A stretch of 64,000 nucleotides of DNA from Dehalobacter sp. (GTDB lineage Bacteria; Bacillota; Desulfitobacteriia; Desulfitobacteriales; Syntrophobotulaceae): contig JAMPIU010000073.1 in assembly GCA_023667845.1 (NCBI GenBank), forward strand, positions 62,001 to 126,000, written 5' to 3'. How positions within the stretch are numbered: position 1 is the first letter of the stretch; every line of letters begins with the position of its first letter. A model generated the notes under the pieces. The model was not told where the DNA came from. It saw only the letters and a list, made by a program, of their open reading frames with translations, and made no database searches. Position numbers and translations under genes: made by a program. Positions 30,030 through 55,953 of the stretch are shown piece by piece.

Positions 30030-30470
30030 TTACTGTTTCACGACCACAATACTGTCCCCCGGTTTAATCCATCCCGGAGACAGGACTTTGGTAAAAATCC
30101 CCTCACGCGGCATCACGCAGTCCCCGGCAAGCCGTTTAATGGCGCATCCGCTGTTATGGCATTGTTTGCCGATCTGGGTCACTTCCATCAGCGTCTCACC
30201 GATTTTAAGCTTTGTACCAATGGGAAGCTCATACAGAATAATGCCTTCGGTCGTGAGGTTTTCCGCAAATCTACCGTTATCCAGCCCGGTGAGTCCGGCC
30301 TGTTTTAATTTTTCAACACTTTCTGTCCCAAGCAAGCTGACCTGTCTGTGCCAGTTGGCAGCATGCGCATCCCCTACTAAACCATGATCCACTTTAAAAT
30401 AGCCTTTTTCAATTTCTTGCTTCGGAACCCCTGTTGTTTCACTAATATTGACAGCAATTATTTTTGGCAT
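30030..30470 (-). CDS. MOSC-domain protein
   Basis: A 146-residue MOSC protein. Family features: VDHGLVGDAHAANWHRQVSLL (about 27-47), GRFAENLTTEGI (about 66-77) and the single conserved cysteine region GKQCHNSGCAIK. MOSC proteins handle sulfur for Moco or reduce substrates with bound cofactor. As last gene of the Moco operon it probably acts on the cofactor or its sulfido ligand; the exact reaction is unknown. Confidence 0.88.
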   Translation of the reverse strand: MPKIIAVNISETTGVPKQEIEKGYFKVDHGLVGDAHAANWHRQVSLLGTESVEKLKQAGLTGLDNGRFAENLTTEGIILYELPIGTKLKIGETLMEVTQIGKQCHNSGCAIKRLAGDCVMPREGIFTKVLSPGWIKPGDSIVVVKQ

Positions 30471-30486: not shown

Positions 30487-30984
30487 TTAAGACAAATATT
30501 TCTCGACGATAAGATCCGCTACAGCTTGATAATCGTTGATATCGATCACCGGAACCGGAACTGCAAGATCATTGATATCCGTGATAACACCAATTAAATT
30601 CTCCAAAGGTGAAACAATAGCGGTGCCTACTTCTCTTCGTACAACTTCAAACCGTGGTCTTTGGGACATTTTGAATCCTTCAACCAGGATGATATCGATG
30701 TCTTCAATCATCGCAATCACATCTTCAATATCTTTCTTCATCTCGGTTTTCTGAATGATAGCATATTGGTCTGGCCCGATAATCGCCGTAGATCTTGCAC
30801 CTGCCTCGGCAAACCGCCAACTGTCTTTACCTGGTTGATCGATATTGAAGCGGTGAGCATCGCTCTTGATCACACCGACCTTGAAGCCGCGTTCCGTCAT
30901 TTCTCTGATGAGCTTTTCCAAGAAAGTTGTCTTTCCGGTACCTGATTTCGCAGCAACAAAACATATGACTGGAACATCATTCAC
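30487..30984 (-). CDS. mobB: Molybdopterin-guanine dinucleotide adaptor MobB
   Basis: A 165-residue GTPase-like protein with P-loop CFVAAKSGTGKTTFLEKLI, the VGVIKSDAHRFNID segment and IILVEGFKMSQRPRFEV. It assists MobA in cofactor guanylation. The GTG at 30984, six bases after GGGGAG, gives the family start; a longer in-frame reading overlaps mogA. Confidence 0.92.
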   Translation of the reverse strand: MNDVPVICFVAAKSGTGKTTFLEKLIREMTERGFKVGVIKSDAHRFNIDQPGKDSWRFAEAGARSTAIIGPDQYAIIQKTEMKKDIEDVIAMIEDIDIILVEGFKMSQRPRFEVVRREVGTAIVSPLENLIGVITDINDLAVPVPVIDINDYQAVADLIVEKYLS

Positions 30985-31010
30985 AGTGCTCTCCCCCTGT
31001 CTGTTGTTTG

Positions 31011-31505
31011 TTAAATTGGCTGCGCACACTCTTCGGCAGTCCCTTTTAGAATTTCTATACCGTGCTCCAACGACTGCAGAGCAACAGTCAGACATTCTTT
31101 AACACCTTTAGGGCTTCCCGGTAAATTGATAATCACGGTTTTGCCTCTGATCCCGGCGGCCGCTCTGGAAAGCATCGCTCTGGGCGTGACCTTCAGGCTC
31201 TCCAGTCTCATCGCCTCGGGAATTCCCGGAGTGAGCCTTTCGACGACAGCCAGCGTAGCTTCCGGGGTCACATCCCTCGGTGAAAACCCAGTTCCTCCGG
31301 TCGTGAATATCACATCAACTTTGCATTCGTCGGCATATTCAATCAGCTTGGCTTCAATGATCTTCTGTTCATCCGGAACAATTTCCAGAATCCTAACTTC
31401 CCAGCCGATCTCTTCAACCATATTTTTAATGACCTGCCCGCTTAAGTCCTCGCGTTCTCCTCTGGATCCTTTGTCACTGGCTGTGATAACACCTACAGTG
31501 ATCAT
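31011..31505 (-). CDS. mogA: Molybdopterin adenylyltransferase (MogA/MoaB family)
   Basis: A 164-residue protein that adenylates molybdopterin before metal insertion. VGVITASDKGSRGEREDLSG, FTTGGTGFSPRDVTPEAT and the INLPGSPKGVKE loop are diagnostic. It lies between moaC and mobB in the operon. Confidence 0.93.
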   Translation of the reverse strand: MITVGVITASDKGSRGEREDLSGQVIKNMVEEIGWEVRILEIVPDEQKIIEAKLIEYADECKVDVIFTTGGTGFSPRDVTPEATLAVVERLTPGIPEAMRLESLKVTPRAMLSRAAAGIRGKTVIINLPGSPKGVKECLTVALQSLEHGIEILKGTAEECAQPI

Positions 31506-31615: not shown

Positions 31616-32104
31616 TTATTTTGTTTTATCCGACCGGACATAATTGCCGCTTTTGCCGCCGGACTTGCTGACCAGACAGATATCCCCGATCGCCATATCC
31701 TTTTCTGCGGCCTTGCACATGTCATAGATGGTAAGCGCTGCGACAGAAACTCCCGTAAGGGCTTCCATTTCGACGCCGGTCTGGCCGGAGTTATTAACTG
31801 TTACCTGAATTTCAATCTTGCTTTCCTGGTCGTTGATTTTAAAAGAAACATCTATTCCCGACAACAGCAGCGGGTGGCACATCGGAATAATATCAGAAGT
31901 CTTTTTGGCACCCATGATACCTGCAACCTGCGACACCGCCAGTACATCCCCTTTAGCCATGAGCCCCTCCTTGACTAGCGTCAGGGTTTCAGGCTTCATC
32001 CGGATCTCGCCGCGTGCTACCGCCACGCGAGCGGTTTCAGCCTTTCCGCTTACGTCAACCATTCTGGACCTTCCCTCTTCATTGAAATGTGTCAGTTCAC
32101 TCAT
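31616..32104 (-). CDS. moaC: Cyclic pyranopterin monophosphate synthase MoaC
   Basis: A 162-residue protein. MVDVSGKAETARVAVA, the IPMCHPLLLSGIDVSF segment and EMEALTGVSVAALTIYDMCKA are MoaC hallmarks, including catalytic His/Lys regions. It acts after MoaA in the first step of Moco synthesis. Start ATG 32102-32104, nine bases after GGGTGA; eight bases downstream of moaA. Confidence 0.96.
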   Translation of the reverse strand: MSELTHFNEEGRSRMVDVSGKAETARVAVARGEIRMKPETLTLVKEGLMAKGDVLAVSQVAGIMGAKKTSDIIPMCHPLLLSGIDVSFKINDQESKIEIQVTVNNSGQTGVEMEALTGVSVAALTIYDMCKAAEKDMAIGDICLVSKSGGKSGNYVRSDKTK

Positions 32105-32112
32105 GTTATTTT

Positions 32113-33075
32113 TCACCCGCCTATTTCATGCATATTTCTTATTACCGGCTGATAATCACTGCTCTGGATACAATGCCGGGTAGGTTTTGCCATGATTCCA
32201 TCCATCAGAAACTTCTCAAGTCCGTTTTCACCGTAATTTCGAATATCGATCTCGACATTGGAATGAAGACATGGTTTCAATTTGCCGTCGGGCGTAATCC
32301 TGATTCGGTTACAGTAATTGCAGAAATGGCTGCTTAACGGGCTGATCAGACCAACCTTGCCTTTGCTGTTCGGAAGTTTGTAGAGACGCGCTACGCTGCC
32401 ATGTCTTTTAAACGGCAACGGGATCAACATCGGTACTCTTTTCAGTATTTCTTCGTTGGACAAGAAATGCTCCTGGCCCCACGCTCCGGCTTCCCCGATC
32501 GGCATAAGCTCAATAAAACGAACTTCGATATCATGATCCATCGTCATCGCGACAAAATCTTCGATTTCATTGTCGTTGAATCCGCCAATAAGAACGACAT
32601 TGATCTTTAATGGGAATAGTTTTGCTTCTTTTGCCGCCCTGATCCCTTCCAGAACATCCTGGACATTACCGGAGCGGGTAATTTCCTTATATTTTGCCGG
32701 ATCCATGCTGTCAATACTAATATTGACCCGCGTCAACCCAGCCTTTTTCAGGTCATCCGCATATTTTTCCAGAAGCAGCCCGTTAGTCGTGAGTCCCAGT
32801 TCCTTGAGTCCTTTGTTTTTCAGCAAGGCAATATTTTGGACCAGATCCATGATCCCTCTCCTTACCAATGGCTCTCCGCCAGTGAGCCTGATCTTGGTGA
32901 TTCCGAGTTTAACGGCTGTCTCGGCAATTTTCTCCATAGTTTCCAGGCTTAAGATATCGCAGCGTTCTTTTTTCTCAATACCTTCTTCCGGCATACAGTA
33001 CGTACATTTTAAATTGCATAAATCCGTTACAGATATTCTTAAATAATTGATATCCCTGCCATATGCATCGATCAT
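32113..33075 (-). CDS. moaA: GTP 3',8-cyclase MoaA
   Basis: A 320-residue radical SAM enzyme that cyclises GTP. The first cluster is CNLKCTYCMPEEG (about 24-36); the second, substrate-binding cluster uses FCNYCNRIRITPDGKLKPC (about 250-268). The protein ends in Gly-Gly, the conserved C-terminal tail needed for activity. The ATG at 33075 has GGGGAG upstream. Confidence 0.96.
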   Translation of the reverse strand: MIDAYGRDINYLRISVTDLCNLKCTYCMPEEGIEKKERCDILSLETMEKIAETAVKLGITKIRLTGGEPLVRRGIMDLVQNIALLKNKGLKELGLTTNGLLLEKYADDLKKAGLTRVNISIDSMDPAKYKEITRSGNVQDVLEGIRAAKEAKLFPLKINVVLIGGFNDNEIEDFVAMTMDHDIEVRFIELMPIGEAGAWGQEHFLSNEEILKRVPMLIPLPFKRHGSVARLYKLPNSKGKVGLISPLSSHFCNYCNRIRITPDGKLKPCLHSNVEIDIRNYGENGLEKFLMDGIMAKPTRHCIQSSDYQPVIRNMHEIGG

Positions 33076-33127
33076 TATCTCAACTCCCCACTTTACACTC
33101 GTATACCCGTACACTGGATGAAAATTC

Positions 33128-34147
33128 TTATCTGCAGAAATAGCAGTTTGGATATTGACACATCTGGCAGTTCAAACATAAACCGCCTTCCCCCATGCGG
33201 ATAAAATCATTTTTGTTCAGTGTCTCTCCAGCAAAGATCTTCGGGAGTACCGCATCCAGGACAGTCGTCTTGTAATAGGCGGCAGCTCCGGGTACGCCTA
33301 AGATAGGTATCCCATTCAGATAAGCCAGCATAAACATATTGCCGGGCTGAACAGGAACACCATAAGTTACAACATCTGCACCGGTACTCCTGATCGCCCC
33401 AGGAGTAAGATCATCGGGATCTACGGACATCCCCCCGGTCATAATAATCATGTCGGCTTTTTGCTCCATATAACCTGTGATCTTCGCTTGAATCAATTCC
33501 AATTCATCAGGGCAATATTCCTGACCGATGATTTCCGCGCCAAAATACTCAAGTTTTTTCCTGATCACAGGCCCAAATTTATCTTTGATCCTTCCTTTAT
33601 ACACTTCACTTCCGGTAATCACAATCCCAACCCTGAGCTTTTTATACGGCTCAACATGAAATACCGGACCATAAAGGGTGCATAATTCTTCTACTTTGCA
33701 AATATTTTCTTCTTTGGTAACAAGCGGTATAATCCTGGTTGCTGCAACTTTCTGATTAACTTCAACCTTGAAATTATTCGGTAGGGACGGTATCGTAACA
33801 TGTTCAATCGAATTGATTTCGTGCAGCAATGAGCTTTTGATCCTCAGCAAACCTTTTTGAGTCGAAATCAACGTAGTTTTACCTTCCTGAGGTTCCGAAA
33901 AACTGATGTTCTGACCCATGACAGCTTGTGCCATTCTGATCGCAGCATCGTCTTCATGGATTTCATCGGCATTTTCTTCCCAGACGTAGATGTGCTCTTT
34001 ACCAAGACTCAACAGTTCCTCGATATCTTCCTGCTTGATCACATGATTTCTTTTAAAAGCGGGGCCTTTGAATTCCCCAGGAATCACTTTGGTTATATCG
34101 TGGCAAAGGGTCATTCCAACTGCATCCTGGACTGCTATTTTTTTCAT
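33128..34147 (-). CDS. Molybdopterin-binding MoeA/CinA-like protein with Cys-rich tail
   Basis: A 339-residue MoCF-fold protein distinct from moeA next door. MTLCHDITKVIPGEFKGPAFKRNHVI opens it; the MPT-binding signature ADMIIMTGGMSVDPDDLTPGAIRSTGA and GVPGAAAYYKTTVLDAVLPKIF are in the C-terminal half. The last 25 residues hold five cysteines in CLNCQMCQYPNCYFC, suggesting an FeS cluster or metal site. Such proteins occur beside moeA in anaerobes; role in Moco handling inferred. Confidence 0.85.
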   Translation of the reverse strand: MKKIAVQDAVGMTLCHDITKVIPGEFKGPAFKRNHVIKQEDIEELLSLGKEHIYVWEENADEIHEDDAAIRMAQAVMGQNISFSEPQEGKTTLISTQKGLLRIKSSLLHEINSIEHVTIPSLPNNFKVEVNQKVAATRIIPLVTKEENICKVEELCTLYGPVFHVEPYKKLRVGIVITGSEVYKGRIKDKFGPVIRKKLEYFGAEIIGQEYCPDELELIQAKITGYMEQKADMIIMTGGMSVDPDDLTPGAIRSTGADVVTYGVPVQPGNMFMLAYLNGIPILGVPGAAAYYKTTVLDAVLPKIFAGETLNKNDFIRMGEGGLCLNCQMCQYPNCYFCR

Positions 34148-34236: not shown

Positions 34237-35454
34237 CTATTCAATGATATAAGCGGTTAATTTTTCACCGGCTTTGACTGGTCCGCTCTTTTCCGGAATT
34301 TCCGCCAGGATATCACAGCCGAGCATGGAGCGCAGCACACCATTGCCTTGTTCTCCGGTCGATTCCATGATGACCATACCATTCTCGTAAAGCATTCTGC
34401 CGCGTAAAAATCTTCGGCGAGGACTTGATTTTCGGAAATCCTTCTTCAGGGTCACTTCAATCTTTCGATAACAATAATCCCTTCTGCCAGTCATTTTTTT
34501 AATGTAGGGGACAGCCATCAGCTGAAAAGTTACCATTGCTGCGGCCGGATTGCCTGACAAGCCGATCAGCATCTTCCCGTCCTTCACTGCGGCTAGACAC
34601 GGTGAGCCCGGTTTAATCTCAATTTTCCAGAAAAGTGTTTCGGCGCCAAGATAATCGGCTGCATGCCGGATCACGTCATAGTCTCCCACCGATACGCCTC
34701 CAGTCGTCAGTACCAATTCGGCCTGCTTCCAAGCCTCTTCAACCAGGGCTGCAACATCTTCTTTCTTGTCTTTGCAGATCCCCATCACGACAGGCTCTAC
34801 ACCAAGTGAACGGAGATAGCCTTGGAGTGTATAGCTGTTGCTGTTTCGGATCTTACCGGGAGCTAGAGGCTCCGTTACATCACGCAGTTCGTCTCCGGTA
34901 GAGATAATCGCAATTTTTGGACGTTTATAAACCAGCACTTCCGCAATACCGAGGGAGGCCATCAGCCCCATCAGCGGTGCCGTAACAACGGTTCCCTCAG
35001 CCGCTATCAGATCACCTACAGCAATATCTTCACCCGCAGGCACGATATCTTCACCGTGCATGAAGGCCTTTGAAACAGATATCTTGCTACCCTGAACTTC
35101 TACCTCTTCAAATTTGACAACTGCATCCGCGCCTTCAGGGATCGGAGCTCCTGTCAAAATTTTAATTGCCTGACCCTTGCTGACAGCGTTTTGGGCCGTA
35201 TAACCTGCCGGCACTTCTTCAATCACCTCAAAGGTGACCGGATTAGCTTCGCTGGCTTCCGCAGTATCTTCGGCCCTGAAAACAAAACCGTCATAAGGTG
35301 AACGCGAAAACGGCGGAATGTTTTCCCTGGCAACAATATCCTCTGCCAGCACTCTACCAAGGGTATCCGCTAAATGATTATTCTCCTTTTCGGTCAAAGG
35401 ACAATAATCAAATATCAAACTTTGGGCTTCTTCCAACGAAATATTTTTTTGCAT
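34237..35454 (-). CDS. moeA: Molybdopterin molybdenumtransferase MoeA
   Basis: A 405-residue protein that inserts molybdate into adenylated molybdopterin. ENIPPFSRSPYDGFVFRAED, LTGAPIPEGADAVVKFEEV, ISTGDELRD, TTGGVSVGDYDVIR and GLSGNPAAAMVTF are all MoeA motifs. First gene of the Moco operon, with a GGAGG site and an intrinsic terminator 27 bases upstream of its ATG, which suggests conditional expression. Confidence 0.95.
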   Translation of the reverse strand: MQKNISLEEAQSLIFDYCPLTEKENNHLADTLGRVLAEDIVARENIPPFSRSPYDGFVFRAEDTAEASEANPVTFEVIEEVPAGYTAQNAVSKGQAIKILTGAPIPEGADAVVKFEEVEVQGSKISVSKAFMHGEDIVPAGEDIAVGDLIAAEGTVVTAPLMGLMASLGIAEVLVYKRPKIAIISTGDELRDVTEPLAPGKIRNSNSYTLQGYLRSLGVEPVVMGICKDKKEDVAALVEEAWKQAELVLTTGGVSVGDYDVIRHAADYLGAETLFWKIEIKPGSPCLAAVKDGKMLIGLSGNPAAAMVTFQLMAVPYIKKMTGRRDYCYRKIEVTLKKDFRKSSPRRRFLRGRMLYENGMVIMESTGEQGNGVLRSMLGCDILAEIPEKSGPVKAGEKLTAYIIE

Positions 35455-36038: not shown

Positions 36039-38240
36039 TTACACCCGTTGTACCCGGCAGTTCAAGCCATTATATGTCCAAGTTCCAACCAAAGGATCAG
36101 AAGTTTCAAAGTCACCATTGGTCAGGACATTCGCGTTACTAATCCATAATCCTCCCAGAGTAGGCTCAGATGTTGGCATTTCCGGATACCACCAGCCATA
36201 TTCTAGGCTAACGACATCATTGCACATCTCCGAAATTTTCAAAGTAAATTCAGCTTTCCCGCGTTCTGTTTCAACCCGCACCCGGCAGCCGTCATCCAAG
36301 CCGAGGCTTTTAGCCGTGGCTGCGCTTATTTCTGCGAGTGGTTCAGGATGAACAGCCCGGAACTGGTCGAACTGGTGAAAGCTCGATGCATAAAAAGGCT
36401 GAAAACGGGCCCCGGTGACCAGCCCTAACGGGAATTCGGCATTCGGCTTTGGTGTCGGCTTCGGAACCGGCAGTTGGTCCGCCCCGATTTCTTTCAGGAA
36501 TTCACTGCATAATTCCACTTTGCCGCTAATGGTGGCAAAGCCTCTGGGCTTTCCTGTCTCCGGATCCGTCTCCGCATACTTGTAATACGAATTTGGCTGG
36601 TCGTACAGACCGGTACAGCAGTATTCCTCCCACGTAATGCCCGCCGGTGCTAGAGAGGCCTCCTGGGCGTCGCGATATGTTTCCCACGGCCATTCCTGGG
36701 GGTCCTGCCCGAGGCGCTGGCCGAGTTCCTTCCAAAAGTAAAAGTCGGCACGCCGTTCATAATAAGGTTCAACGGCCTGATCGCCACCATAAGCAATGTT
36801 TGCTGTGCCGGCTTTGGTCTCGATCAAGGGACGCTCCAGGACACCGGCCCCCGGCAGGATATAGTCTGCCAGCATCGAAGTTGGTGTTTGGAATAACTCC
36901 AGAACAATTAAAAGGTCCAGACTTTTCAAGGCTTCATAAATCAGATGCGTATCCGCCTGTGTCAGAAGGGGGTTAGACGCCATGACGATCAGGGATCTCA
37001 CCGGATAAGGCTTCCCTGTCAACATCGCCTTCCAGACCAAGTTCGGATGGGTTGAGGTTAGGTAGCGCATCGGCAGCCTTTTCTGATGCTTCATGGTCAG
37101 CTTGCGTACTGAGGCATAGCCTGTGTAGGCCTGCAGACGCAGTTTGTCCTTGGCAATATATTTCGGAGCGAGTGTCCCAGCAAAGCGCTCACTCAGCTCT
37201 AGATCAAGTTCGGGAATAAAGTCCGGCATTTCGCTGATATGAGAAGCCCCGGGACGGTCTACATTCCCGGTGATTGCGCGCAGGATGGACAGGGCCCTGT
37301 GAGTCGGAACGCTATTCGGTCCAAGCTGGTCAATTCCACGGCCGCTGTGTAACGTTGCCGGACCGCCGGATGCATAAAGACGAGCCACTTCGCTGACCAT
37401 ATCTGCCGAAATGCCGGTAATGCTTTCGACGTAGCCGGGTGAATACGGAAGCAGGTGTTCGGCAAGCTGTTCGAAGCCGTGACACCATGTTTCAACAAAT
37501 TGCTTATCATATAATTTCTCAGCGATAATCTCATGAAGAATCCCCAGGGCAAGGACCGCGTCTGTTCCCGGACGGACGGCCAGCCAGTGCGTGGCTTTCT
37601 GCGCAGACAAGGTTCTTCTCGGATCCACCACAATCAGCGGTTTTCCTGTAAGGCTGAATTCTTTGATTGTCCGCCACAATAAATTGTTGTCTGACTCGGC
37701 CGGATTTACTCCCCAAAGGATCAGACAAGATGTTTCTTCGGGACTCAGTTCCATATCGATCGGCCAGCCATACGTCAGCGTGTTGATCCAGATTCCCGGA
37801 TTCCAGCATATCTGACCAATGCCGATGTTATTCGGACTGCCAAACAGGCTCATAAAACGATGCAAAGGCCAGTAGGTCGTATGAGGGCCGCCGATGCTCG
37901 TCGCAAGCACTTCAGGACCGTACTTTTCTTTCAGCAACTTCAGCTTTACAGCAATTTCATCGAGAGCCTGATCCCAGGATATCCGCTCCCACTGTCCGCT
38001 GCCGCGTTCCCCAACCCTTTTCAGCGGATAGTTAATCCGTTGGGGATGATCCATCACTTCAGGAGCCATCCGCCAGCGCCTGCAGCCGTGTTGAATGGTC
38101 TCGTCTCCAGGAAAACGGGTAGGGTCAGGTCTTACTTCCGTAACTTTTCCATTTTCAACCGTTGCGATCAAACCGCACTGGTATCCGCAGAACCGGCAGT
38201 TCGTTTGGACCTCTTTTATTCCTACACAGTTTTTTTGCAT
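36039..38240 (-). CDS. Molybdopterin oxidoreductase, acetylene-hydratase-like branch, stand-alone
   Basis: A 733-residue DMSO-reductase-family protein without Tat signal. [4Fe-4S] ligands Cys15, 18, 22 and 53; putative metal ligand Cys145 in GQICWNPG. DHPQRINYPLKRVG and WERISWDQALDEIA, DPRRTLSAQKATHWLAVRPGTD, and a C-terminal MGD-binding domain (SGKVELCSEFLKEIG onward) are all as in acetylene hydratase and relatives. The catalytic Asp that follows the second cluster Cys in acetylene hydratase is Gly19 here, so hydration of acetylene is unlikely. No dedicated FeS or membrane partner adjoins it; it is 92 bases after a radical SAM gene. Substrate unknown. Confidence 0.85.
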   Translation of the reverse strand: MQKNCVGIKEVQTNCRFCGYQCGLIATVENGKVTEVRPDPTRFPGDETIQHGCRRWRMAPEVMDHPQRINYPLKRVGERGSGQWERISWDQALDEIAVKLKLLKEKYGPEVLATSIGGPHTTYWPLHRFMSLFGSPNNIGIGQICWNPGIWINTLTYGWPIDMELSPEETSCLILWGVNPAESDNNLLWRTIKEFSLTGKPLIVVDPRRTLSAQKATHWLAVRPGTDAVLALGILHEIIAEKLYDKQFVETWCHGFEQLAEHLLPYSPGYVESITGISADMVSEVARLYASGGPATLHSGRGIDQLGPNSVPTHRALSILRAITGNVDRPGASHISEMPDFIPELDLELSERFAGTLAPKYIAKDKLRLQAYTGYASVRKLTMKHQKRLPMRYLTSTHPNLVWKAMLTGKPYPVRSLIVMASNPLLTQADTHLIYEALKSLDLLIVLELFQTPTSMLADYILPGAGVLERPLIETKAGTANIAYGGDQAVEPYYERRADFYFWKELGQRLGQDPQEWPWETYRDAQEASLAPAGITWEEYCCTGLYDQPNSYYKYAETDPETGKPRGFATISGKVELCSEFLKEIGADQLPVPKPTPKPNAEFPLGLVTGARFQPFYASSFHQFDQFRAVHPEPLAEISAATAKSLGLDDGCRVRVETERGKAEFTLKISEMCNDVVSLEYGWWYPEMPTSEPTLGGLWISNANVLTNGDFETSDPLVGTWTYNGLNCRVQRV

Positions 38241-38332
38241 AAAAATTCCTCTGTCTTTAAAATATATTATCTGTACATCGGTATTACTGTTCTATCTGTC
38301 TAAAAGACCCTATGTTTTTTATATTCGATGTC

Positions 38333-39625
38333 TTAAATTTTACTCAGTCTCTTCCCATCCATATTCGTCAGTTGGTAGGAGCAGAATGGCACCAAACATC
38401 CATCTTTACGAGCTACAGTCATGCTGCATTCCTGTAACCTCTTCAGATCCAGGCTGAACCCATCCATATAATTCATGATCACAACGGTCAAACCGAACCC
38501 TAGATCCGGATATTTCCTGAAAGCGATATCCCCCAATACCGACCCCTGCGGGCTGTCCGGGTCGAACGCCTCGATATATTCCTCCCGCGTGATCTTTCGT
38601 GTGAACGGCAGAAATTTCCCCTGATCCTCAATGATATACGTTGCTGAAGAGCACAACGGGTGGGAACACCCTAAAGGCAAAAAGTCATAAACCTTAATGA
38701 GACCGTTGCTTTGTTCCTCAATCATAAAAATCACGTCCCCCATGGTCAGCCGTTTCTGCATCACGACATCAAAACGGCCCGAACCAAAAGCAGGCTGATA
38801 AGCAAGACCGGCGATCACATCCCTGTTCTGCAGCGCGAAATTCAACACATCGCCCATTTGATTCTGGTTGATGCCTTCTATCACGGTCATTGCGAGTACA
38901 ACCTGAACGCCGGCTTTCCGGCAATTTTCAATCGCCTGTAATTTAATGTACAACAGGTTTTCACCCCTGATTTGTTCATATACTTCGCCGGTTAATCCGT
39001 CGAACTGCATATAAATACCGCTGATCCCGGCTTCGGCAAGATTAATGATATAGTCGGGGTTTTGGGCAATCACAACGCCATTCGTATTCACTTCAATATA
39101 ATCAAAACCAATTCTTCTTCCCATCCGGACAATCTCAGGCAAATTTTTACAGATGGTCGGCTCACCACCGGTCAGCTGAATACTGGTTTGGGGGCCTGAC
39201 TGTTTCAGAATCGCTTTATACTTATCTTCTATCATCTGAAGGTCAAAGTCATTTTGAGTTACACCCTTAGCGGCTTCGGCAGCCATAAAGCAAACCGGGC
39301 AGCGCAGGTTGCAGCGTTCGGTCACTTCGATCTCTGCCAAGGTACAATGGCGAAGATGGGAAGCACACAGACCGCAGTCATTCGGACAGCCTTCTCTGAC
39401 CTGTCTCGGTAATTGCGGTTTTTTCAGAGGAAGCCGGAAATCGTTCATCCAACGATAGTGATCAACATCCGGCCAAAGATACGTGATGACCGGTCCATGA
39501 TCAGGGCAGCTCTTTTCCAGATAGACGGCCCTGTCCCGAACGACGACTTCGGCATAAACAACCTTGAGGCAGACCGGGCAGACGCTTTTGGTATGGTCCA
39601 AGACAGCGGGATCATTTTTCTGCAT
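38333..39625 (-). CDS. TrsS-like radical SAM protein
   Basis: A 430-residue radical SAM enzyme. The N-terminus has a CPVC pair (Cys16/19) and CPDHGP; then GCPNDCGLCASHLRHC (extra cysteine cluster) and the SAM-cluster motif CNLRCPVC (about 104-111), followed by QLTGGEPTI. This order matches the TrsS / MJ0619 group of radical SAM proteins, in which the first CPVC cysteine can be selenocysteine in relatives; here it is Cys. It lies between two molybdoenzyme genes, so it may modify a cofactor or partner, but that is inference. Confidence 0.82.
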   Translation of the reverse strand: MQKNDPAVLDHTKSVCPVCLKVVYAEVVVRDRAVYLEKSCPDHGPVITYLWPDVDHYRWMNDFRLPLKKPQLPRQVREGCPNDCGLCASHLRHCTLAEIEVTERCNLRCPVCFMAAEAAKGVTQNDFDLQMIEDKYKAILKQSGPQTSIQLTGGEPTICKNLPEIVRMGRRIGFDYIEVNTNGVVIAQNPDYIINLAEAGISGIYMQFDGLTGEVYEQIRGENLLYIKLQAIENCRKAGVQVVLAMTVIEGINQNQMGDVLNFALQNRDVIAGLAYQPAFGSGRFDVVMQKRLTMGDVIFMIEEQSNGLIKVYDFLPLGCSHPLCSSATYIIEDQGKFLPFTRKITREEYIEAFDPDSPQGSVLGDIAFRKYPDLGFGLTVVIMNYMDGFSLDLKRLQECSMTVARKDGCLVPFCSYQLTNMDGKRLSKI

Positions 39626-39875
39626 GGCTCAATCTCCTTAACTATTTCATTTCGACTGGTACATTGCGAAACCGCTCGTCATTATTCCTGATCACCGGGT
39701 AATTCGCTTTCTTTCATTGAATACTTTCATTAAACTTGGTTTTCTATGCAGCATATCTAGATCAATTATAACCATAAAAATATGAACGTAGGAGGATAAA
39801 AGTACGAATAAATCTACTAACATCAAAAAGTAGAAAAGTCTTTGATCGCAAAGCATTAAGCAAAAGGTGGTAATG

Positions 39876-39918
39876 TAAATATAAACGTTAACGTTAAAAA
39901 CGTTAACGTTTATATTTA
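39876..39918. repeat. Perfect 20-bp palindrome with three-base loop
   Basis: Arms 39876-39895 and 39899-39918 are exactly complementary around AAA. Each arm ends in AACGTTAACGTT, itself a palindrome, so the site is nested. It lies 22 bases past the stop of the NrfD-like gene and has no T run. It may be a terminator/processing hairpin or an operator for the radical SAM gene. The rest of 39626-39940 shows nothing else. Confidence 0.6.
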
Positions 39919-39940
39919 TTAGAAACGGATTCCTATAAGC

Positions 39941-40876
39941 TTACCCTTTTAAAATTTTCATGAAATCTTCGTCGCCATGAGGCAGTTTTGCTCTATATTT
40001 CTGTTCTCCTGGCAGCCAGGTACGATCCTGCCCGCTGTATATGACCAGATTACGCATAATCACGCCGCCGAGCAGCACGCATAGAGTACCGATCGCTTTG
40101 AACGTGTCTGCAGCAACAAAGTAGTCAGCAAGCAACAGCAGGACAAGTGGTACTGCACTGCCGATGAAGAGGATGCCGCCCTTGAAGGCTGTGGCATAAT
40201 TGCCGCTGGTCCATCTTCTCGCCGTAATAGCTTCTCTTTCGGTCGTACCGCTGATTTTGATCCAGATATAGCCAATCCATAGAATCAGCTGCAGGGCCAG
40301 TAGAGCAGCCGCGAGCCAGGGCATCACATTGATCGCAGCCGAATCAGCTGCAGGAAGGAACAGGTCGATTAAGATGTGGCCGGCGAGTCCGGTTACCAGG
40401 GAAGAGATCAGGAACAAGCCCATGATCCCGGCTCCAGTCCAGAAAGGACGCGCTTTGTGACGTGCCAGCAGAACGCCGGGGTAGGTTGCCACAACCAAAC
40501 CTACGATTAAGCAAACAACAGCAAAGAACTTACGGACAGCAACCGCTCCGGTCCAGGGAAGAGCATCAAGCCCGAAGGAAGCGAGGATAATCCCGGCACC
40601 GATACAGAAAAGCATATTCCAGGCACCGAAAGTCAGGATCGCTTTCGGATTAAAGAATACCCGCCAGCCCTGAAAAGGTCTGCCTAGCTCAAGTACCAGC
40701 AGTCCGGCACCGATAGCAACACACACCGGGGCAAGAAAATTGCCCAGAACCGAGGTCGTGCCTTCACCAACTAATAAATCTGCAAGTGCAGCAATGACGA
40801 GCATGCCTCCGCCCATTCCGGCGAAAAAGAAGTCGACTGCCAGCATCCAACCCCAACCATCATGTTTGTGACTCAT
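39941..40876 (-). CDS. NrfD/DmsC-like membrane anchor subunit
   Basis: A 311-residue integral membrane protein with about eight hydrophobic helices, beginning WGWMLAVDFFFAGMGGGMLVIA, the NrfD/PsrC hallmark. LELGRPFQGWRVFFNPKAILTFGAW is the conserved loop near the quinone site. It anchors the molybdoenzyme and exchanges electrons with menaquinone. Overlaps the FeS-subunit gene by four bases. Confidence 0.9.
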   Translation of the reverse strand: MSHKHDGWGWMLAVDFFFAGMGGGMLVIAALADLLVGEGTTSVLGNFLAPVCVAIGAGLLVLELGRPFQGWRVFFNPKAILTFGAWNMLFCIGAGIILASFGLDALPWTGAVAVRKFFAVVCLIVGLVVATYPGVLLARHKARPFWTGAGIMGLFLISSLVTGLAGHILIDLFLPAADSAAINVMPWLAAALLALQLILWIGYIWIKISGTTEREAITARRWTSGNYATAFKGGILFIGSAVPLVLLLLADYFVAADTFKAIGTLCVLLGGVIMRNLVIYSGQDRTWLPGEQKYRAKLPHGDEDFMKILKG

Positions 40877-41436
40877 CGAATCTGCGCCTCCAATCCAAGA
40901 ATGTAAAATACGTAAGGTTCAGTGCCAAGCTCTCCAAGCAGCCGAACAACATGATTGCCGTTCACGAGCTTGGAAACTTCACCATTTGGATCGTCCAGAT
41001 CACCGAAAACACGGGCTTTCTGATGACAGGTTTGAACACAGCGCGGAACATTGCCTTTATCCACCCGGTCCATACAGAAATCACATTTCTGAACCGTTCC
41101 TTTTTCATGGTTAGGAACACGCGCCCCATACGGGCAAGCCATAACACAAGCTTTGCAGCTGACGCATTTCTTTTCTTCGACAAAAACGATCCCGTCGTCA
41201 CGGCGCTGGGAAGCACCAGTGGGGCAGGCATCGACACAGGGAGTATTTTCACAATGCATACAGATCAAGGGAATATGAACCATGTGCAGATCCGGGAATA
41301 CACCGGTCGGACCAACGGTCGTCACCGGATTGTACATCATGTCGACAGGAAGATTATTGTGAGTTCTGCAAGCTACCGTACAGGACTGACATCCTATACA
41401 AGCGCGTGTATCCATAACCATTGCATAGCGTGCCAT
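40873..41436 (-). CDS. DmsB/NrfC-like four-cluster ferredoxin subunit
   Basis: A 187-residue electron-transfer subunit with four cysteine groups: CIGCQSCTVAC (from residue 13), CMHCENTPCVDACPTGA, CVSCKACVMACPYGA, and CDFCMDRVDKGNVPRCVQTC. It wires the molybdenum subunit to the membrane anchor. Starts two bases after the A-subunit stop, with GGAGGG upstream. Confidence 0.95.
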   Translation of the reverse strand: MARYAMVMDTRACIGCQSCTVACRTHNNLPVDMMYNPVTTVGPTGVFPDLHMVHIPLICMHCENTPCVDACPTGASQRRDDGIVFVEEKKCVSCKACVMACPYGARVPNHEKGTVQKCDFCMDRVDKGNVPRCVQTCHQKARVFGDLDDPNGEVSKLVNGNHVVRLLGELGTEPYVFYILGLEAQIR

Positions 41437-41438
41437 AG

Positions 41439-43670
41439 TTATTTTCCCTCCTTTCCATCAACCTTGTAAATCTTGCATAACAAGCCTCTGTTGGCCCAAG
41501 TACCGCTGATCGGGTCACAGTCCTCATCCCGGGTGCTTGTCAATACGTTGGTATTCGATTCCATACATCCGCCAAGTACAGGCTCATTGATTTCTCTTTC
41601 CGGGAACCACCAGCCGCGCTCGGTAACAATGACTTTTGGGGAAACGGCCTGAGTTACATCGGCTCTTTGTTTAATTCTACCGCGTTGCGTTTCAATCCAA
41701 ACCCAATCATTCTCCTTGATGCCATACTCTTTTGCTGTTTTCGGGTTAATTTGGAAATGAGGTTCATGATTAATATAACGGACACTGCGGAGATTGAAAT
41801 GTTCTGAATGGTGAAAAGGCATAAAGCCATAGCCGGTCGTTAAGACCAACGGATACTCCTTGGCCAATTCCGGGTGATCAATCTCATTTTCAACCGGTCC
41901 AACGTATTCGGGCATTGGCGGATAGCCAAGATCCTTCAGGGTACTTGAGTAAAGCTCGACTTTCCCGGACGGAGTTGCAAAACCCTGATTGAGATATTTC
42001 TGATATTGTCTTTCCGGGAAATGGAACCGGTACCATTCAACAAATTCATCATAATTTTCAGTACCATAACCAAGAGGTTCAATTTTAGCAAAGTAAGCAT
42101 CTTCAACGGTTTCCCACGGCCAATGCTCACCTTGTCCCATGGCGACACCAAGGTCTTTCCAGAAATTATAGTCATTGCGACGTTCGTACATCGGTTGAAT
42201 AGCGCGCTGCGATGCAAGAAGAAAGTCCGTACAGCCGTAGCTGCTGGTGATGGTTGGACGCTCCAAGGCACCGGCAATCGGCAGGACATAATCGGAAAGC
42301 GCGGCGGTCGGCGTCATCCAGTACTCGCAGGTGACCATAAATTCTACTTTTCTAAGCGCTTCCAGCACAACTTTGCTCTCACCGAAGGAATTGACCGGAT
42401 TGGTAGCAGATACCAAAAGCGCTTTCACCGGATACGGGTCGCCGGAAATGATCGCCCGGAAGACCGAAGGTGGATGAGCCTCGCACATCCATTCGGCGGT
42501 AGGCGCCTTTCCCCAGATTTTTTTAGTTGCTTCAGCAATTTTGCTGTATCCAGGCCAGGTAAGGAGTTTAAACTTGTCGGAACCGATTTGTTTGGCTTTC
42601 TGTTCTTCCGGCAGGAATTCATTGCCTTCCATCTCTTCGTCAGTGATGTATTCACGGCTTGGTCCGGTCAGAAGGTCGGATCCCGGTACATCAAGATTGC
42701 CGGTAACTGCGCGGAGAAGTGCACGGGCATGTATCGCTGCACCGCTCACTCTTCCCAGCTGATCCACGCACGGACCCCATTGAATGTTGCCGGGCGTGTT
42801 CATCGCATACATTCTGGCACTTTCTCTGATCTGATCTGCGGTGAGCCAGGTCAACGGCGCGGCCCATTCCGGTGTAAACTGTTCAACATGCGCAAACAGC
42901 TCGCCGAAACCAACACAGCAGTTCTCGACAAAATCAGCATTATACAGACCCTCATAGAGAATGACATTCAACCAGGCCAAAATAAGGGCCAGGTCGGAAC
43001 CCGGACGCAAAGGCAGCCACATGTCGCATTTGGCGGCTGTTTCCGTAAATCTTGGATCAATGACCATAATTTTTAGGCCTTTTTCTCTGAACTCGGTCAG
43101 ATGGTGCATTTCCGGCAAACTTGAGACTCCTGGGTTCTGTCCCCAGAGCACCAGACATCGGCTGGCACCCAAATCAATTTCAAACGGGCTCCAGCCACAA
43201 ATTGCGGTCTCAATCATAAAGGTTGGAATCCAGCAGAGGTGTGAATTATGAAAACCGTTCGGGCTGCCGAAGAGATTCATGAAACGACGGCGGGCCCAGT
43301 CATCCGTACGCTGCGTGCCGCCGGCTGTCGCTACGGCTTCTGAACCAAATTCATCACGGATGGCAGCAAGTTTTGCTGCAATTTCACTAATTGCCTGATC
43401 CCAGGGAATCTGTTCCCATTTCCCTTCGCCCTTCTTACCAACTCTTTTCAGAGGGTAATTGATGCGGTCAGGGTGATCAAGGTGCAGTAAGGCGATATTT
43501 CCGCGGCAGCATAATCCGCCGGTATTGGTTGGAAACTCAGGATCGCCTTCAATTGCTATTACTTTGCCATCTTTGACGTACGCCAGTACGCCGCAGTTCT
43601 GGTGACAAAAGTAGCAGCATGACTTCTTTACCACAATACCTTCTTGTTCCAAATCAACATTTCTGTTCAT
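41439..43670 (-). CDS. Molybdopterin oxidoreductase catalytic subunit, acetylene-hydratase-like branch, membrane-linked
   Basis: A 743-residue paralogue of the enzyme at 36039-38240. Cluster ligands Cys19, 22, 26 and Cys54 or 55; metal-ligand Cys146 in SHLCWIPTF. It has the family segments DRINYPLKRVGKKGEGKWEQ and DPRFTETAAKCDMWLPLRPG and the C-terminal SGKVELYSSTLKDLGYPP. The position of the acetylene-hydratase catalytic Asp is His23. No Tat signal, so with its FeS and NrfD partners it would face the cytoplasm. Leads a three-gene operon; a sigma-54-like promoter lies 240 bases upstream. Substrate unknown. Confidence 0.87.
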   Translation of the reverse strand: MNRNVDLEQEGIVVKKSCCYFCHQNCGVLAYVKDGKVIAIEGDPEFPTNTGGLCCRGNIALLHLDHPDRINYPLKRVGKKGEGKWEQIPWDQAISEIAAKLAAIRDEFGSEAVATAGGTQRTDDWARRRFMNLFGSPNGFHNSHLCWIPTFMIETAICGWSPFEIDLGASRCLVLWGQNPGVSSLPEMHHLTEFREKGLKIMVIDPRFTETAAKCDMWLPLRPGSDLALILAWLNVILYEGLYNADFVENCCVGFGELFAHVEQFTPEWAAPLTWLTADQIRESARMYAMNTPGNIQWGPCVDQLGRVSGAAIHARALLRAVTGNLDVPGSDLLTGPSREYITDEEMEGNEFLPEEQKAKQIGSDKFKLLTWPGYSKIAEATKKIWGKAPTAEWMCEAHPPSVFRAIISGDPYPVKALLVSATNPVNSFGESKVVLEALRKVEFMVTCEYWMTPTAALSDYVLPIAGALERPTITSSYGCTDFLLASQRAIQPMYERRNDYNFWKDLGVAMGQGEHWPWETVEDAYFAKIEPLGYGTENYDEFVEWYRFHFPERQYQKYLNQGFATPSGKVELYSSTLKDLGYPPMPEYVGPVENEIDHPELAKEYPLVLTTGYGFMPFHHSEHFNLRSVRYINHEPHFQINPKTAKEYGIKENDWVWIETQRGRIKQRADVTQAVSPKVIVTERGWWFPEREINEPVLGGCMESNTNVLTSTRDEDCDPISGTWANRGLLCKIYKVDGKEGK

Positions 43671-48881: not shown

Positions 48882-49949
48882 TTAAACACCCACTGTTTCT
48901 TCGTCTTTATATTGATTAATCTCCCGCCAGGCATTCCTTGCCCAGTCAGGATCATTCAGCAGGGACCGGCCGACTCCGATCAGATCTGTCGTGTTTTCCT
49001 GAATGAGCATTACCGCATTCCGAGCGTTTTTGATTCCGCCTGTCACTAAAACAGGGATTCCGGCCACCGGTTTTAAGGCCTCAGCCATATACGCAAAAAA
49101 TCCTTCCGGGCCGCTTTTCAGATATCCGCAGATCCCACCCGACAAATCCAGACAGTCGATCCCGGCTTCAACCAGAAGCGGAACTGCCCTGATACTATCC
49201 TGAAGGGTATTGCCACCGGGCAGGCGGTCATCGGCTCCAAGTCTGTAGAACACGGGCATTTCTGGGCCAAGAGCTTCCCGGACTGCCCGAATCACTTCAC
49301 AGGAAAAACGCAGGCGGTTTTCCAAAAAACCCCCGTACTCGTCCGTACGATGGTTGGTGAGCGGGGAATAAAACTGATTCAGCAGGTAACCATGGGCACC
49401 GTGGATCTCCACGAAATCAAATCCGGCTTTTTTGACCCGACAGGCAGCTTCAGCGAACTTTTCGACCAACCGGCTGATTTCACCGGTACTGAGTTCCCGT
49501 GGCAAATCATTTGGATCGGGTGTCTTTTTCCAGCGGCTGAGGTCGGGACAAAATACCGCGGACGGCCCAACCGGGGCATCCATTGCCCTCGCCCCTGCAT
49601 GCGTGATTTGAATTCCGACCGGAACACCTTCCTGATGCAGTTCATTGACCAGAAGCTGAAGCCCCGGAACCAGAAAGTCATCGTAGATGCCCAATTGCCG
49701 AGGATGGGATTTCCCCTGTGGCTCAATATAAGAATGCTCGACGATCACCAGTCCGATCCCGGCTCTGCTGCTCCCGGCAGGTCTTTTTTCCGTCTCTGGA
49801 CAGCTTCGGGCTCTTAGCAGATAATGCTGGATTTGCCCTTCGGTCACTTCACCTTTTGATGTAGCTTTGTCCAGCGCCATCGGCGGCATGACCAGCCTGT
49901 TGCTCATAGCCATTCCTTTAATTTTAAGCGAGGAGAACAGTCCACTCAT
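48882..49949 (-). CDS. Old-yellow-enzyme-like NADH:flavin oxidoreductase
   Basis: A 355-residue FMN TIM-barrel enzyme. SLKIKGMAMSNRLVMPPMAL opens the barrel; QITHAGARA, the substrate-binding IHGAHGYLLNQFYSPLTNHR and TGGIKNARNA for phosphate binding are present. It lacks the C-terminal FeS/FAD extension of 2,4-dienoyl-CoA reductase. Probably reduces activated double bonds. First ATG with GGGGAA upstream; 11 bases after the metallo-hydrolase gene. Confidence 0.9.
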   Translation of the reverse strand: MSGLFSSLKIKGMAMSNRLVMPPMALDKATSKGEVTEGQIQHYLLRARSCPETEKRPAGSSRAGIGLVIVEHSYIEPQGKSHPRQLGIYDDFLVPGLQLLVNELHQEGVPVGIQITHAGARAMDAPVGPSAVFCPDLSRWKKTPDPNDLPRELSTGEISRLVEKFAEAACRVKKAGFDFVEIHGAHGYLLNQFYSPLTNHRTDEYGGFLENRLRFSCEVIRAVREALGPEMPVFYRLGADDRLPGGNTLQDSIRAVPLLVEAGIDCLDLSGGICGYLKSGPEGFFAYMAEALKPVAGIPVLVTGGIKNARNAVMLIQENTTDLIGVGRSLLNDPDWARNAWREINQYKDEETVGV

Positions 49950-50766: not shown

Positions 50767-51732
50767 TTAAATATAAGATATTTGAATCGCCTTTTGCGGG
50801 CATTGGCCTGAACATGTATAGCACAAACTGCATAATTCAGGATGAACAGCTTCTAAAAACTTGCCATTGGAAGTTTCTTTGATTTCGAGCACACTGGCCG
50901 GACAAAAAGCCGCACACAAACCACAGCCGGTGCATTGTTTTTCATCGATAAAAATTCGGATTGAAGAAGCCCCTTCTCCCTTTTGAGGATCACCGCGCAG
51001 CGAACCAATCTTATCCATCACCGGATGAATGTATATTTTTCTTCTCTCTTCCGGAATGCTTTTCTGACCCAGTTTTTGAAGTGCCAGGACAATGGGCTCC
51101 AGCATTTTGGCCGGTACGGACAAATACAGTTCAAAATCATCAATTTCACTTGACGCCCGCGCCCCGTAGCAGCCAAAAGAAATATTCATTTCTCCTGTTT
51201 TCATCGGCTGGATAACCAAATCCGCACAGGTGGAGTTAAAGCCGGAAGTCTTAAAGTTCTGGCGTTCGCCGTTGCTGTAAGTCTGCGCACAACAGAGCCA
51301 CATGGCCTGCTCGGGATATAGGGTGAAGATCACAACGTCCGGCTCAAATGTCGCTTGGTCCAGAGGTGCAAGCAGGGTGGCTTCATAACTATAGGGCTTA
51401 AACTCGGGTCTGGAGGCAATCATTTTCTGCGCCGTTTCCAGAGTGGGCATTTTCTTAAAAAGCAGATATAATTCGCCGGATTTAAGTTTCGGCGACATTT
51501 CCACAAGTCCCAGAATGCCTGAGCCATCGGGACAAGCATGGCTCCGCGGCGGCATATATAAACTGTGGCCTCTGCGCGCAACAATCACAGACTGACAGTG
51601 GCGCAAAGGAACGTTCGGCTCAATCGTCTCGGGCGGACGTTCTTCGTCCGGTCTCATCATCCGTACGGCCACCGGATCCCAGCGAAGGCCCAATACTTCT
51701 TTTAATACTTTGGTCATTTCCTGGTAATTCAA
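50767..51732 (-). CDS. DUF169 protein fused to a two-cluster ferredoxin domain
   Basis: A 321-residue protein. Residues about 1-235 form a DUF169 domain (LRWDPVAVRM, RHCQSVIVARRGHSLYMP, a GCYGARASSEI turn); about 260-315 is a ferredoxin with CTGCGLCAAFCPASVL and CSLCYTCSGQCPQKAI. The start is TTG (51732) with AAGGG upstream. DUF169 has no known reaction; the ferredoxin end makes a redox role likely, with the neighbouring FeS oxidoreductase a possible partner. Confidence 0.85.
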   Translation of the reverse strand: MNYQEMTKVLKEVLGLRWDPVAVRMMRPDEERPPETIEPNVPLRHCQSVIVARRGHSLYMPPRSHACPDGSGILGLVEMSPKLKSGELYLLFKKMPTLETAQKMIASRPEFKPYSYEATLLAPLDQATFEPDVVIFTLYPEQAMWLCCAQTYSNGERQNFKTSGFNSTCADLVIQPMKTGEMNISFGCYGARASSEIDDFELYLSVPAKMLEPIVLALQKLGQKSIPEERRKIYIHPVMDKIGSLRGDPQKGEGASSIRIFIDEKQCTGCGLCAAFCPASVLEIKETSNGKFLEAVHPELCSLCYTCSGQCPQKAIQISYI

Positions 51733-51865: not shown

Positions 51866-53020
51866 TTAGTCTTCAGCCATAATCTTTTCCCAGTATTTTT
51901 CACCCTGCGGGCCTTCAAATATCTCATTCGATTTGGTTTTGACATCGGAGAAATCCTGGTCCAAATCAAGCAAAAGGTTTAGGACGTGCTGAATCCTCAT
52001 GCTTCCATTGCCGGATTCCTTCGCAAAATTCAGGACACAGGCGAGACAATAACCGGCAAGCACCTGGGCACCGGAATTTTTGGCTTCCTCCAGGCGTTTT
52101 CTTTTCAGGTTTTCCGAAAGGTCAGGCCGGAAGAAATGACTGACATGGCCCCCGCTTCCGCAGCAATTAGACAAATTCCGGCTATGTTCCATTTCTACAA
52201 GCTTAAAGCCCTTTGTCACCAATGCTTCTCTGACCTGTCCGGCTAATATTCCGTCATATCGGTCCGGGCAGGCGTCATGCAAAGTGACGGTGATTTCGCT
52301 GTTTTGGGCTTTCTTACTGTCGTCCTTAAACGCCTCGGAATCTGCCAATGCTTCATAAATCGTCAGCAGCCGAATATCGGTATCCTTTAGGAACTCCCGC
52401 AGCGTATAATAACAGTTCGGGCAAATCATGATGATTGACTTGACCTTAAGGGCCTGAAACTTTAACTTGATTTGTTGAACAAATTGTTCCCCGCGATCCG
52501 GTAAACCCAACTGGTAAAGGGACAGTCCGCAGCAGTCTGGAAGAATGGTCAGCCCTTTAAATTGTTTCAACAGTTCAGCAAATGAAGCTCTCACCAACTC
52601 CGGAGAATAGGTAATCATGCTACATCCCGGAAAGAATACAACAGAGGCTTCCTCCCGAGGAGCTAAATCATCATAACGAATGCCCTTAATCTCCCGGTAC
52701 AGACTCATTGGCGTTGTTTTGCGATCCGGAAACAAGTAGCGATAGTCATTAATCGTCATTTGTTTTTTTTCTACCGCATCCGTTCTTTTTTCTGCAAACA
52801 TGTCCAGCATGCTAACTGATACCGGACAAACAGCCTCACACAAACCACAAAGGGAACAGGAATAGGCCTCTTCTACTGAAGGACCTCTCTCTGCAATCGC
52901 AACCGGATCTTCACCGATTCCCTGAAGAAACTCACACCCGGAAACACACTGCATGCAGTCAATACAATTTTCCGTAATACGTTGACACGCCTGCTGCAAT
53001 TTATGATCTGCTATATTCAT
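51866..53020 (-). CDS. CCG-domain FeS oxidoreductase (GlpC/HdrD-like)
   Basis: A 384-residue protein with an N-terminal two-cluster ferredoxin domain (CIDCMQCVSGC near residue 19 and CSLCGLCEAVC near 55) and two C-terminal CCG motifs: PDCCGLSL (about 175) and SNCCGSGGH (about 300), with matching upstream CPNC and HDACPD segments. Such proteins pass electrons to or from quinones or disulfides. It precedes the DUF169-ferredoxin gene in the same direction, so the two may form a redox unit. Confidence 0.88.
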   Translation of the reverse strand: MNIADHKLQQACQRITENCIDCMQCVSGCEFLQGIGEDPVAIAERGPSVEEAYSCSLCGLCEAVCPVSVSMLDMFAEKRTDAVEKKQMTINDYRYLFPDRKTTPMSLYREIKGIRYDDLAPREEASVVFFPGCSMITYSPELVRASFAELLKQFKGLTILPDCCGLSLYQLGLPDRGEQFVQQIKLKFQALKVKSIIMICPNCYYTLREFLKDTDIRLLTIYEALADSEAFKDDSKKAQNSEITVTLHDACPDRYDGILAGQVREALVTKGFKLVEMEHSRNLSNCCGSGGHVSHFFRPDLSENLKRKRLEEAKNSGAQVLAGYCLACVLNFAKESGNGSMRIQHVLNLLLDLDQDFSDVKTKSNEIFEGPQGEKYWEKIMAED

Positions 53021-54486: not shown

Positions 54487-55323
54487 TTATACCGATTCTC
54501 TGACTGACGGCATTGTAACCGACTGTAACCCTACGTCATTTAAGAACTTAACCGTACGTTTTGGAACAATCATTGAATCATCATACTTGGCAGCCAGTTC
54601 GATCGCCCGGACAACAGGCATTGCACTGGCCAGATCTATAGGAATATCCACATCCGGCACCTGCTCAACCATGCCAAAAGGTACATCCTCATTCTCTGCC
54701 TTGGCGACCAAAACATCGAGTGCCGTGATGCCATCGATATTATAAAAGACGGAATCAAAACCAAATGACGTCGTACAGGTCAAACCAATAATGGAGAATC
54801 CGCCTTCCTGGCAGGAACCTTCCACAATTGCAGCTCCAATCGAAGGTGCTGTCGGAATGACTTCCGCAACCTTCATCCCGAATTCACTCTGGCTTAAGCT
54901 TTCCAGTCTGTCTAAAGCATCCCTTAATATATGGGGCTGAAGCGACGGCAAATCACCTCCAACAATCAGGAGCGCATCTGAGAGTCTGTCTGCCGCACCT
55001 GACTTAAGCAGGAAATCTGTCGCATACTGCATGCATTCATTAAAGGATCCGCCGTTGTCACTGAATACACCGGCAATCTTTTGCGGGTAGCTTACTTTTG
55101 TCAATAAGGAATCCAGATAAGATCTATCACCGTTTTTGTTGTAGCAAATCCAAATATCAATATCATCCAGGCTAAGTGCTACGTCAATCACGTCGAGCAT
55201 ACAGGCTTCGTACAGAGCATTTGCTTCCTCAGGGGTCAAAATACCCCCGCGTGCTTCCGTCAAACGGGTTTTAACTTCACCAATTTTAGGTACCTTAGTA
55301 AATACAATAATTGCCTTTTTCAT
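54487..55323 (-). CDS. DUF2064 (TIGR04282-type) glycosyltransferase-like protein, copy 1
   Basis: A 278-residue protein of the rSAM/selenodomain-associated transferase 1 group. VFTKVPKIGEVKTRLTE (about 7-23) is the family nucleotide-binding signature; LLIVGGDLPSLQPHIL (about 117-132) holds the metal-binding Asp. It ends VPKRTVKFLNDVGLQSVTMP. A clear paralogue is at 56749-57576. Overlaps the preceding GNAT gene by four bases. Real substrate unknown. Confidence 0.85.
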   Translation of the reverse strand: MKKAIIVFTKVPKIGEVKTRLTEARGGILTPEEANALYEACMLDVIDVALSLDDIDIWICYNKNGDRSYLDSLLTKVSYPQKIAGVFSDNGGSFNECMQYATDFLLKSGAADRLSDALLIVGGDLPSLQPHILRDALDRLESLSQSEFGMKVAEVIPTAPSIGAAIVEGSCQEGGFSIIGLTCTTSFGFDSVFYNIDGITALDVLVAKAENEDVPFGMVEQVPDVDIPIDLASAMPVVRAIELAAKYDDSMIVPKRTVKFLNDVGLQSVTMPSVRESV

Positions 55324-55799: not shown

Positions 55800-55953
55800 A
55801 GCTACTCCATTTCCAGCATTCCTTCTGCGATCAAACAATTACAGAAATTGAAATGCTTTGTTCCTCCTTTCACATAAAAAACGGGATTTACTCAGGTAAT
55901 TCATCCATTGAATATCATGTTGCATCTATATGATACATCAATTTGACACTTAC

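Follow-up and report, generated by a model that had tools for sequence, protein, structure and literature searches.

About ten genes kept together by anaerobes of at least four phyla point to an undescribed metabolic pathway

Why should two acetylene-hydratase-like molybdoenzymes, here called A1 and A2, be encoded in one gene set with a radical SAM protein (rSAM)? We analysed a window of 64,000 nucleotides from Dehalobacter sp. (contig JAMPIU010000073.1), the term window standing for that whole stretch of DNA, in which a sequence-only reading had described two DMSO-family proteins with FeS and NrfD partners, a radical SAM protein and an operon for molybdenum cofactor (Moco) synthesis. The five genes were confirmed on the minus strand, where they are transcribed in the order A1, B, C, rSAM, A2 (Table 1), and the residues given for them were right. 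The A1, B and C genes overlap or almost touch, and a gap of 315 bases separates C from rSAM. The Fe4S4, molybdopterin and dinucleotide-binding domains typical of the bis-MGD (DMSO reductase) superfamily are found in both A proteins above the Pfam cut-off, and the best PDB match of each is acetylene hydratase (2e7z), at 439.8 bits for A1 and 346.9 bits for A2. B had been read as a four-cluster FeS subunit, for which its 16 Cys suffice, and C is of the NrfD type by Pfam; an A subunit, a four-cluster B and an NrfD-type C encoded together represent the architecture of an NrfD-linked complex iron-sulfur molybdoenzyme. Polysulfide/thiosulfate reductase (PsrABC, 2vpw) shares this architecture but differs in that A1 has no Tat signal and matches acetylene hydratase far better (439.8 versus 240.2 bits). 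That neither A protein has a Tat signal had been noted before and agrees with N-termini that lack both twin arginines and a hydrophobic stretch; no Tat signal was seen in window A1 or in the A1 orthologs. The Coriobacteriia orthologs of A1 (L081-L137) are about 870-970 aa long, compared with 743 aa for window A1.

Table 1. Genes of the A1/A2/rSAM set, of its second half and of Moco synthesis, with positions in the window
Feature	Position	Strand	Remarks
A1	41439..43670	-	acetylene-hydratase-like bis-MGD oxidoreductase, 743 aa, CYFCHxNC motif, without Tat signal
B	40873..41436	-	ferredoxin-like subunit, 16 Cys (four 4Fe-4S clusters)
C	39941..40876	-	NrfD-type membrane subunit with putative quinone site; several hydrophobic segments
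rSAM	38333..39625	-	radical SAM protein, Tes/TrsS type, four metal-site motifs
A2	36039..38240	-	second acetylene-hydratase-like bis-MGD oxidoreductase, 733 aa, CxxCGYxC motif
Old-yellow-enzyme (OYE) family flavoprotein	48882..49949	-	recurs in some Bacillota cassettes
MBL-fold hydrolase (PhnP/GPMC-like)	49961..50833	-	adjoins A1 in Coriobacteriia and Desulfobacterota-type loci
DUF169 protein with C-terminal ferredoxin domain	50767..51732	-	ferredoxin domain N-terminal in other phyla
CCG-domain dicluster FeS protein	51866..53020	-	recurring partner
DUF2064/CofC-like nucleotidyltransferase	54487..55323	-	KTRL and GGDxP motifs intact
GNAT acetyltransferase-like protein	55320..55838	-	weakly conserved partner
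Second DUF2064 nucleotidyltransferase-like protein	56749..57621	-	within the region of the partner set
MoeA (Moco synthesis)	34237..35454	-	profile match; near the cassette in relatives too
MoeA-like molybdopterin-binding protein	33128..34147	-	relatives also adjoin true TrsS/aldehyde oxidoreductase cassettes
MoaA (GTP 3',8-cyclase)	32113..33114	-	profile match
MoaC	31616..32116	-	profile match
Mog-like molybdopterin adenylyltransferase	31011..31505	-	named from reading of sequence; conserved in relatives
MobB-like	30487..31095	-	named from reading of sequence; conserved in relatives
MOSC-domain protein	30030..30470	-	named from reading of sequence; conserved in relatives
MobA-like guanylyltransferase	4918..5535	-	best NCBIfam matches are MobA, below cut-off

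The acetylene hydratase of Pelobacter acetylenicus is the nearest solved relative of A1 and A2, with which it has in common a single N-terminal 4Fe-4S cluster, a Cys as Mo/W ligand, a length of about 730 aa and the lack of a Tat signal. Its residues Asp13, which we take to be catalytic, Lys48 and Trp179, together with Cys141 as the presumed Mo/W ligand, were located in A1 and A2 by alignment with 2e7z, from which the numbering was also derived (offset 3). Cys141 is kept in both proteins, whereas the other three are changed: at the place of Asp13 A1 has His23 and A2 has Gly19, Lys48 is Arg in both, and Trp179 gives way to other residues. A1 and A2 further differ from acetylene hydratase in belonging to a multi-gene system. 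The lack of an Asp after the second cluster Cys had thus been read correctly, but it is not the distinctive loss it was held to be. The position is occupied by His in nearly all other proteins of the family that were examined, among them the likely catechol dehydroxylases for ellagic acid from Ellagibacter and Gordonibacter sp. 28C, so that the contrast between A1 and Asp13 is less telling. Judged by these alignments, it is acetylene hydratase that stands out, A1 having the usual residue, and only the Gly-Tyr of A2, which is invariant among A2 orthologs, is unusual. The dehydroxylase (Eadh) genes of these two organisms were picked by a neighbouring PF04909 decarboxylase gene, such a gene lying beside ellagic-acid dehydroxylase genes (PMC12771579).

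In two trees the A1 orthologs form one clade and the A2 orthologs another, each at 100/100; both clades span Bacillota, Coriobacteriia and Desulfobacterota-type genomes, and that of A2 also includes Chloroflexota. The partner of acetylene hydratase, at 100/100, is a protein of Gordonibacter, a further 100/100 clade holds the catechol dehydroxylases, and A1 and A2 lie outside both. The trees do not settle how A1, A2 and acetylene hydratase branch relative to one another. The sequence-only reading had proposed a phylogeny as a check on its view of the two proteins, and that view is not refuted, as neither groups with an enzyme of known substrate. Gordonibacter-type catechol dehydroxylases (for example Eadh1-3) do resemble A1 and A2 in being cytoplasmic bis-MGD proteins of the wider acetylene hydratase group, and A1 in having His at the Asp13 position; they differ in sequence (about 28-31% identity), in their small FeS partner of about 110 aa and in being flanked by MFS and LuxR genes. 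Beside the catechol dehydroxylases inspected, no radical SAM gene was seen.

Two further observations concern these families. The protein that pairs with acetylene hydratase, G151:C32:126466-128493 (L166) of the gut organism Gordonibacter sp. 28C, keeps Asp13, Lys48 and Trp179 and is by its sequence a candidate for a true acetylene hydratase. On contig C95 of the genome from which the window comes, a Bacillota genome, a tandem pair of genes (L060:1048-3345 and 4247-6496) encodes members of the catechol dehydroxylase clade, and behind each of them comes a small ferredoxin-like protein, about 110 aa long. The same contig encodes two 894-aa molybdoproteins (L059:13554-16238 and L060:17020-19704) with identical match scores, which seem to stem from a recent duplication.

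In named genomes 80 A2 loci were found by scanning, 49 of them with enough flank. The rSAM gene lies beside A2 in 49/49 of these full-flank loci, which come from several phyla, and other partners recur there as well (A1 in 43, the DUF2064 gene in 41, CCG in 38, DUF169 in 35 and MBL in 28). The A1-B-C-rSAM-A2 block is kept in about a dozen relatives from two orders, and more complete gene sets are found in other phyla. This supports the view of the radical SAM gene as a true partner of the A proteins, and the linkage to it, which had been proposed as a check, is strongly conserved. Of the earlier description of one A protein with B and C and one alone, the A1-B-C part holds, whereas A2 is not alone but regularly near the rSAM gene.

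Among 151 related genomes a close rSAM ortholog was found in 15, all of which have A1 and 14 of which have A2; in the single one without A2 the contig ends there. This co-occurrence gives a Fisher p < 1e-18, the counts and the test being without kinship correction. DUF169 is present in 14 of the 15. Only two further genomes have A1 (71%; 55 and 52%) without a close rSAM or A2, and both of them have DUF169. One of the two, G150, is a single contig, and A1 can probably work without its presumed core. In five genomes whose A1 is not near A2 it is found elsewhere in the same genome at 68-74% identity, and six genomes in which no rSAM was seen near A2 likewise have it elsewhere. The exceptions among the genomes tested are two of the Desulfobacteria type, in which a close ortholog of A1 was looked for and not found and an unrelated A-B-C set occupies the place of A1-B-C (L080:3897-7320 and L084:3829-7048), with the rest of the cassette kept. 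In the Ellagibacter family the rSAM gene occurs in 62 of 138 genomes, and the cassette rSAM is usually single copy. Genes in high-GC loci were called by ORF, codon bias and similarity.

The MBL, DUF169, CCG, DUF2064 and GNAT genes that adjoin A1, A2 and rSAM in other phyla are also present in the window, but there the partner set (48882-57621) is split from the A1-A2 half by Rex and, on the plus strand, an operon for an NADH-linked [FeFe] hydrogenase, whose genes were named from reading of the sequence. The system first described was therefore only half of it, these recurring partners having been missed. The ferredoxin domain of the DUF169 protein swaps ends, being C-terminal here and N-terminal elsewhere, which supports a fixed partnership. 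No function can be drawn from the fold of DUF169, for which all Foldseek matches had an E of 0.26 or more and the Z values of VIA-align did not exceed 4.2. Neighbouring genes for an APH kinase, an ABC transporter, a nucleoside hydrolase and the OYE flavoprotein were considered as hints to a substrate and set aside, since they recur only in part of the Bacillota.

The radical SAM protein had been called TrsS-like. It does match TrsS (NF045646), but at 400.7 bits against a cut-off of 490, and its match to Tes (NF045702) is likewise below the cut-off (341.6 against 450 bits); by the curated cut-offs it is neither Tes nor TrsS. Its metal sites are a rubredoxin-like CX2CX20CX2H, an N-terminal C3H cluster site, a CX3CX2C and three C-terminal cluster Cys. 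With the metal-site ligands of Tes as reference (PMC9433317), all Tes metal-site residues are kept in 12/12 cassette rSAM orthologs, and a model of the protein (mean pLDDT 73.6) matches the Tes structure 7tol with a Foldseek E of 1.5e-32. It thus resembles Tes (GDGT-MAS, MJ0619) in fold, in the rubredoxin-like site and in the N- and C-terminal auxiliary cluster ligands, and differs in being shorter (430 aa) and outside a lipid gene context. From TrsS it is set apart by 26 positions that are invariant in cassette rSAM proteins and never shared by any of the three TrsS proteins compared, and by the lack of the CC motif of the latter. A pterin-methylating role, suggested by the Pfam name HMPTM, was dropped because MJ0619 has been reassigned to lipids (PMC9433317).

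A complete TrsS/aldehyde oxidoreductase cassette is present elsewhere in the same genome (contig C144, L058:850-15282), and the true TrsS in it scores 631.7 bits. Such cassettes (NF045646 with NF045668, NF045663 and NF045665) have, like the A1/A2 cassette, a Tes-type rSAM, a CCG dicluster protein, an NTP transferase and a MoeA-like protein beside a molybdoenzyme, which however belongs to the xanthine oxidase family and not to the bis-MGD enzymes. In the A1/A2 cassette we saw no counterpart of their methyltransferase, CoA ligase and XdhC-like components. Given a true TrsS cassette in the same genome, the A1/A2 system is best seen as its bis-MGD counterpart. Downstream of A2 follow the genes for MoeA, a MoeA-like protein, MoaA and MoaC, and then Mog-, MobB- and MOSC-type genes. 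We had considered DUF2064 as a replacement for MobA, an idea given up with the finding of a MobA-like protein in the window.

That the gene set encodes one undescribed cytoplasmic multi-enzyme pathway is the reading we tentatively put forward, at somewhat less than an even chance. It is supported by the conserved linkage, the genome co-occurrence, the retention of the Tes metal sites and the intact nucleotide-binding motifs of DUF2064. The earlier suggestion of an apparently undescribed, cytoplasmic and probably quinone-linked system is supported, and a literature search, covering open-access papers, found no description of the A1/A2/rSAM combination. Against a pathway speak the two genomes with A1 but no core, the two Desulfobacteria-type loci in which A1-B-C is replaced, and a gene content that also resembles a cofactor-maturation set. 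The main rival is the maturation of a molybdenum cofactor, in which rSAM, DUF2064, CCG, DUF169 and MBL would modify the Mo/W cofactor or a residue of A1/A2, and only A1/A2 would have an external substrate. The TrsS cassette of the same genome is built alike, round a molybdopterin aldehyde oxidoreductase with a dicluster protein, an XdhC-type maturation factor, a MocA-like NTP transferase and a MoeA-like protein, and Moco genes adjoin the A1/A2 cassette in many relatives. We nevertheless consider this rather unlikely, as there is a separate MobA-like protein, the substrates of Tes are lipid chains and a role in pterin synthesis proposed earlier for MJ0619 could not be corroborated (PMC9433317); the occurrence of A1 and DUF169 without a close rSAM or A2 in the one-contig genome G150 argues mildly in the same direction.

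More doubtful is anaerobic respiration, with A1-B-C using quinol to reduce or dehydroxylate an organic acceptor from outside and A2 and rSAM as further steps of the same catabolism. The kinship to catechol dehydroxylases, the NrfD subunit and the frequency of the rSAM gene in the Ellagibacter family are consistent with it, but A1 and A2 stand outside the dehydroxylase clade, and dehydroxylase-like genes occur in many copies per genome as opposed to the usually single cassette rSAM. An MFS transporter and a LuxR regulator are typical of dehydroxylase clusters (PMC12771579) and are not recurrent neighbours of the cassette. A cluster for growth on acetylene, with A1 or A2 acting as acetylene hydratase, is very improbable: although no PDB entry matches either protein better than 2e7z, the three residues Asp13, Lys48 and Trp179 are changed in both, and the Gordonibacter protein that keeps them groups with 2e7z where A1 and A2 do not. 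Finally, the hydrogenase operon between the two halves in the window might suggest chance neighbours without a common function, a notion contradicted by the unbroken linkage over several phyla and the co-occurrence in genomes, and to which we give practically no credence.

Within the pathway reading, A2 and rSAM would form a catalytic core acting on a small molecule. The radical SAM protein may abstract H from an unreactive C-H bond, using its C-terminal auxiliary cluster as in Tes, and at the Mo/W site of A2 a water-derived or hydroxyl group might be added or removed, or electrons transferred. The CCG protein and the ferredoxin of DUF169 could carry low-potential electrons to A2 or rSAM, DUF2064 could activate a phosphorylated intermediate with an NTP, and A1-B-C would exchange electrons with menaquinone on the cytoplasmic side and so couple the pathway to the quinone pool. 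As to the net result, we lean to a small molecule, cofactor-like or hydrophobic, being made or remodelled. The fuller proposal, a new anaerobic pathway of at least four phyla, gut Eggerthellaceae included, in which a Tes-type rSAM and two new Mo/W clades make or remodel a cofactor or lipid-like metabolite and exchange electrons with the quinone pool, is possible, with about one chance in three in its favour.

Acetylene-hydratase-type molybdoenzymes and Tes-type radical SAM proteins, so far handled apart, are here joined in one widespread and usually single-copy set. Should the set prove to serve a pathway for a new cofactor or lipid, a conserved but unexplained trait of anaerobes from gut and sediment would be accounted for. 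Its function is testable, the set being present in Gordonibacter and Desulfosporosinus, and a native expression system has been reported for Gordonibacter (PMC12771579).

Elsewhere in the window, the gene for a formate dehydrogenase alpha subunit (13357-16032, minus strand) contains one in-frame TGA (14976-14974, context HCART*HAPSV). It falls near the place of the active-site selenocysteine, and the genome probably uses selenocysteine.
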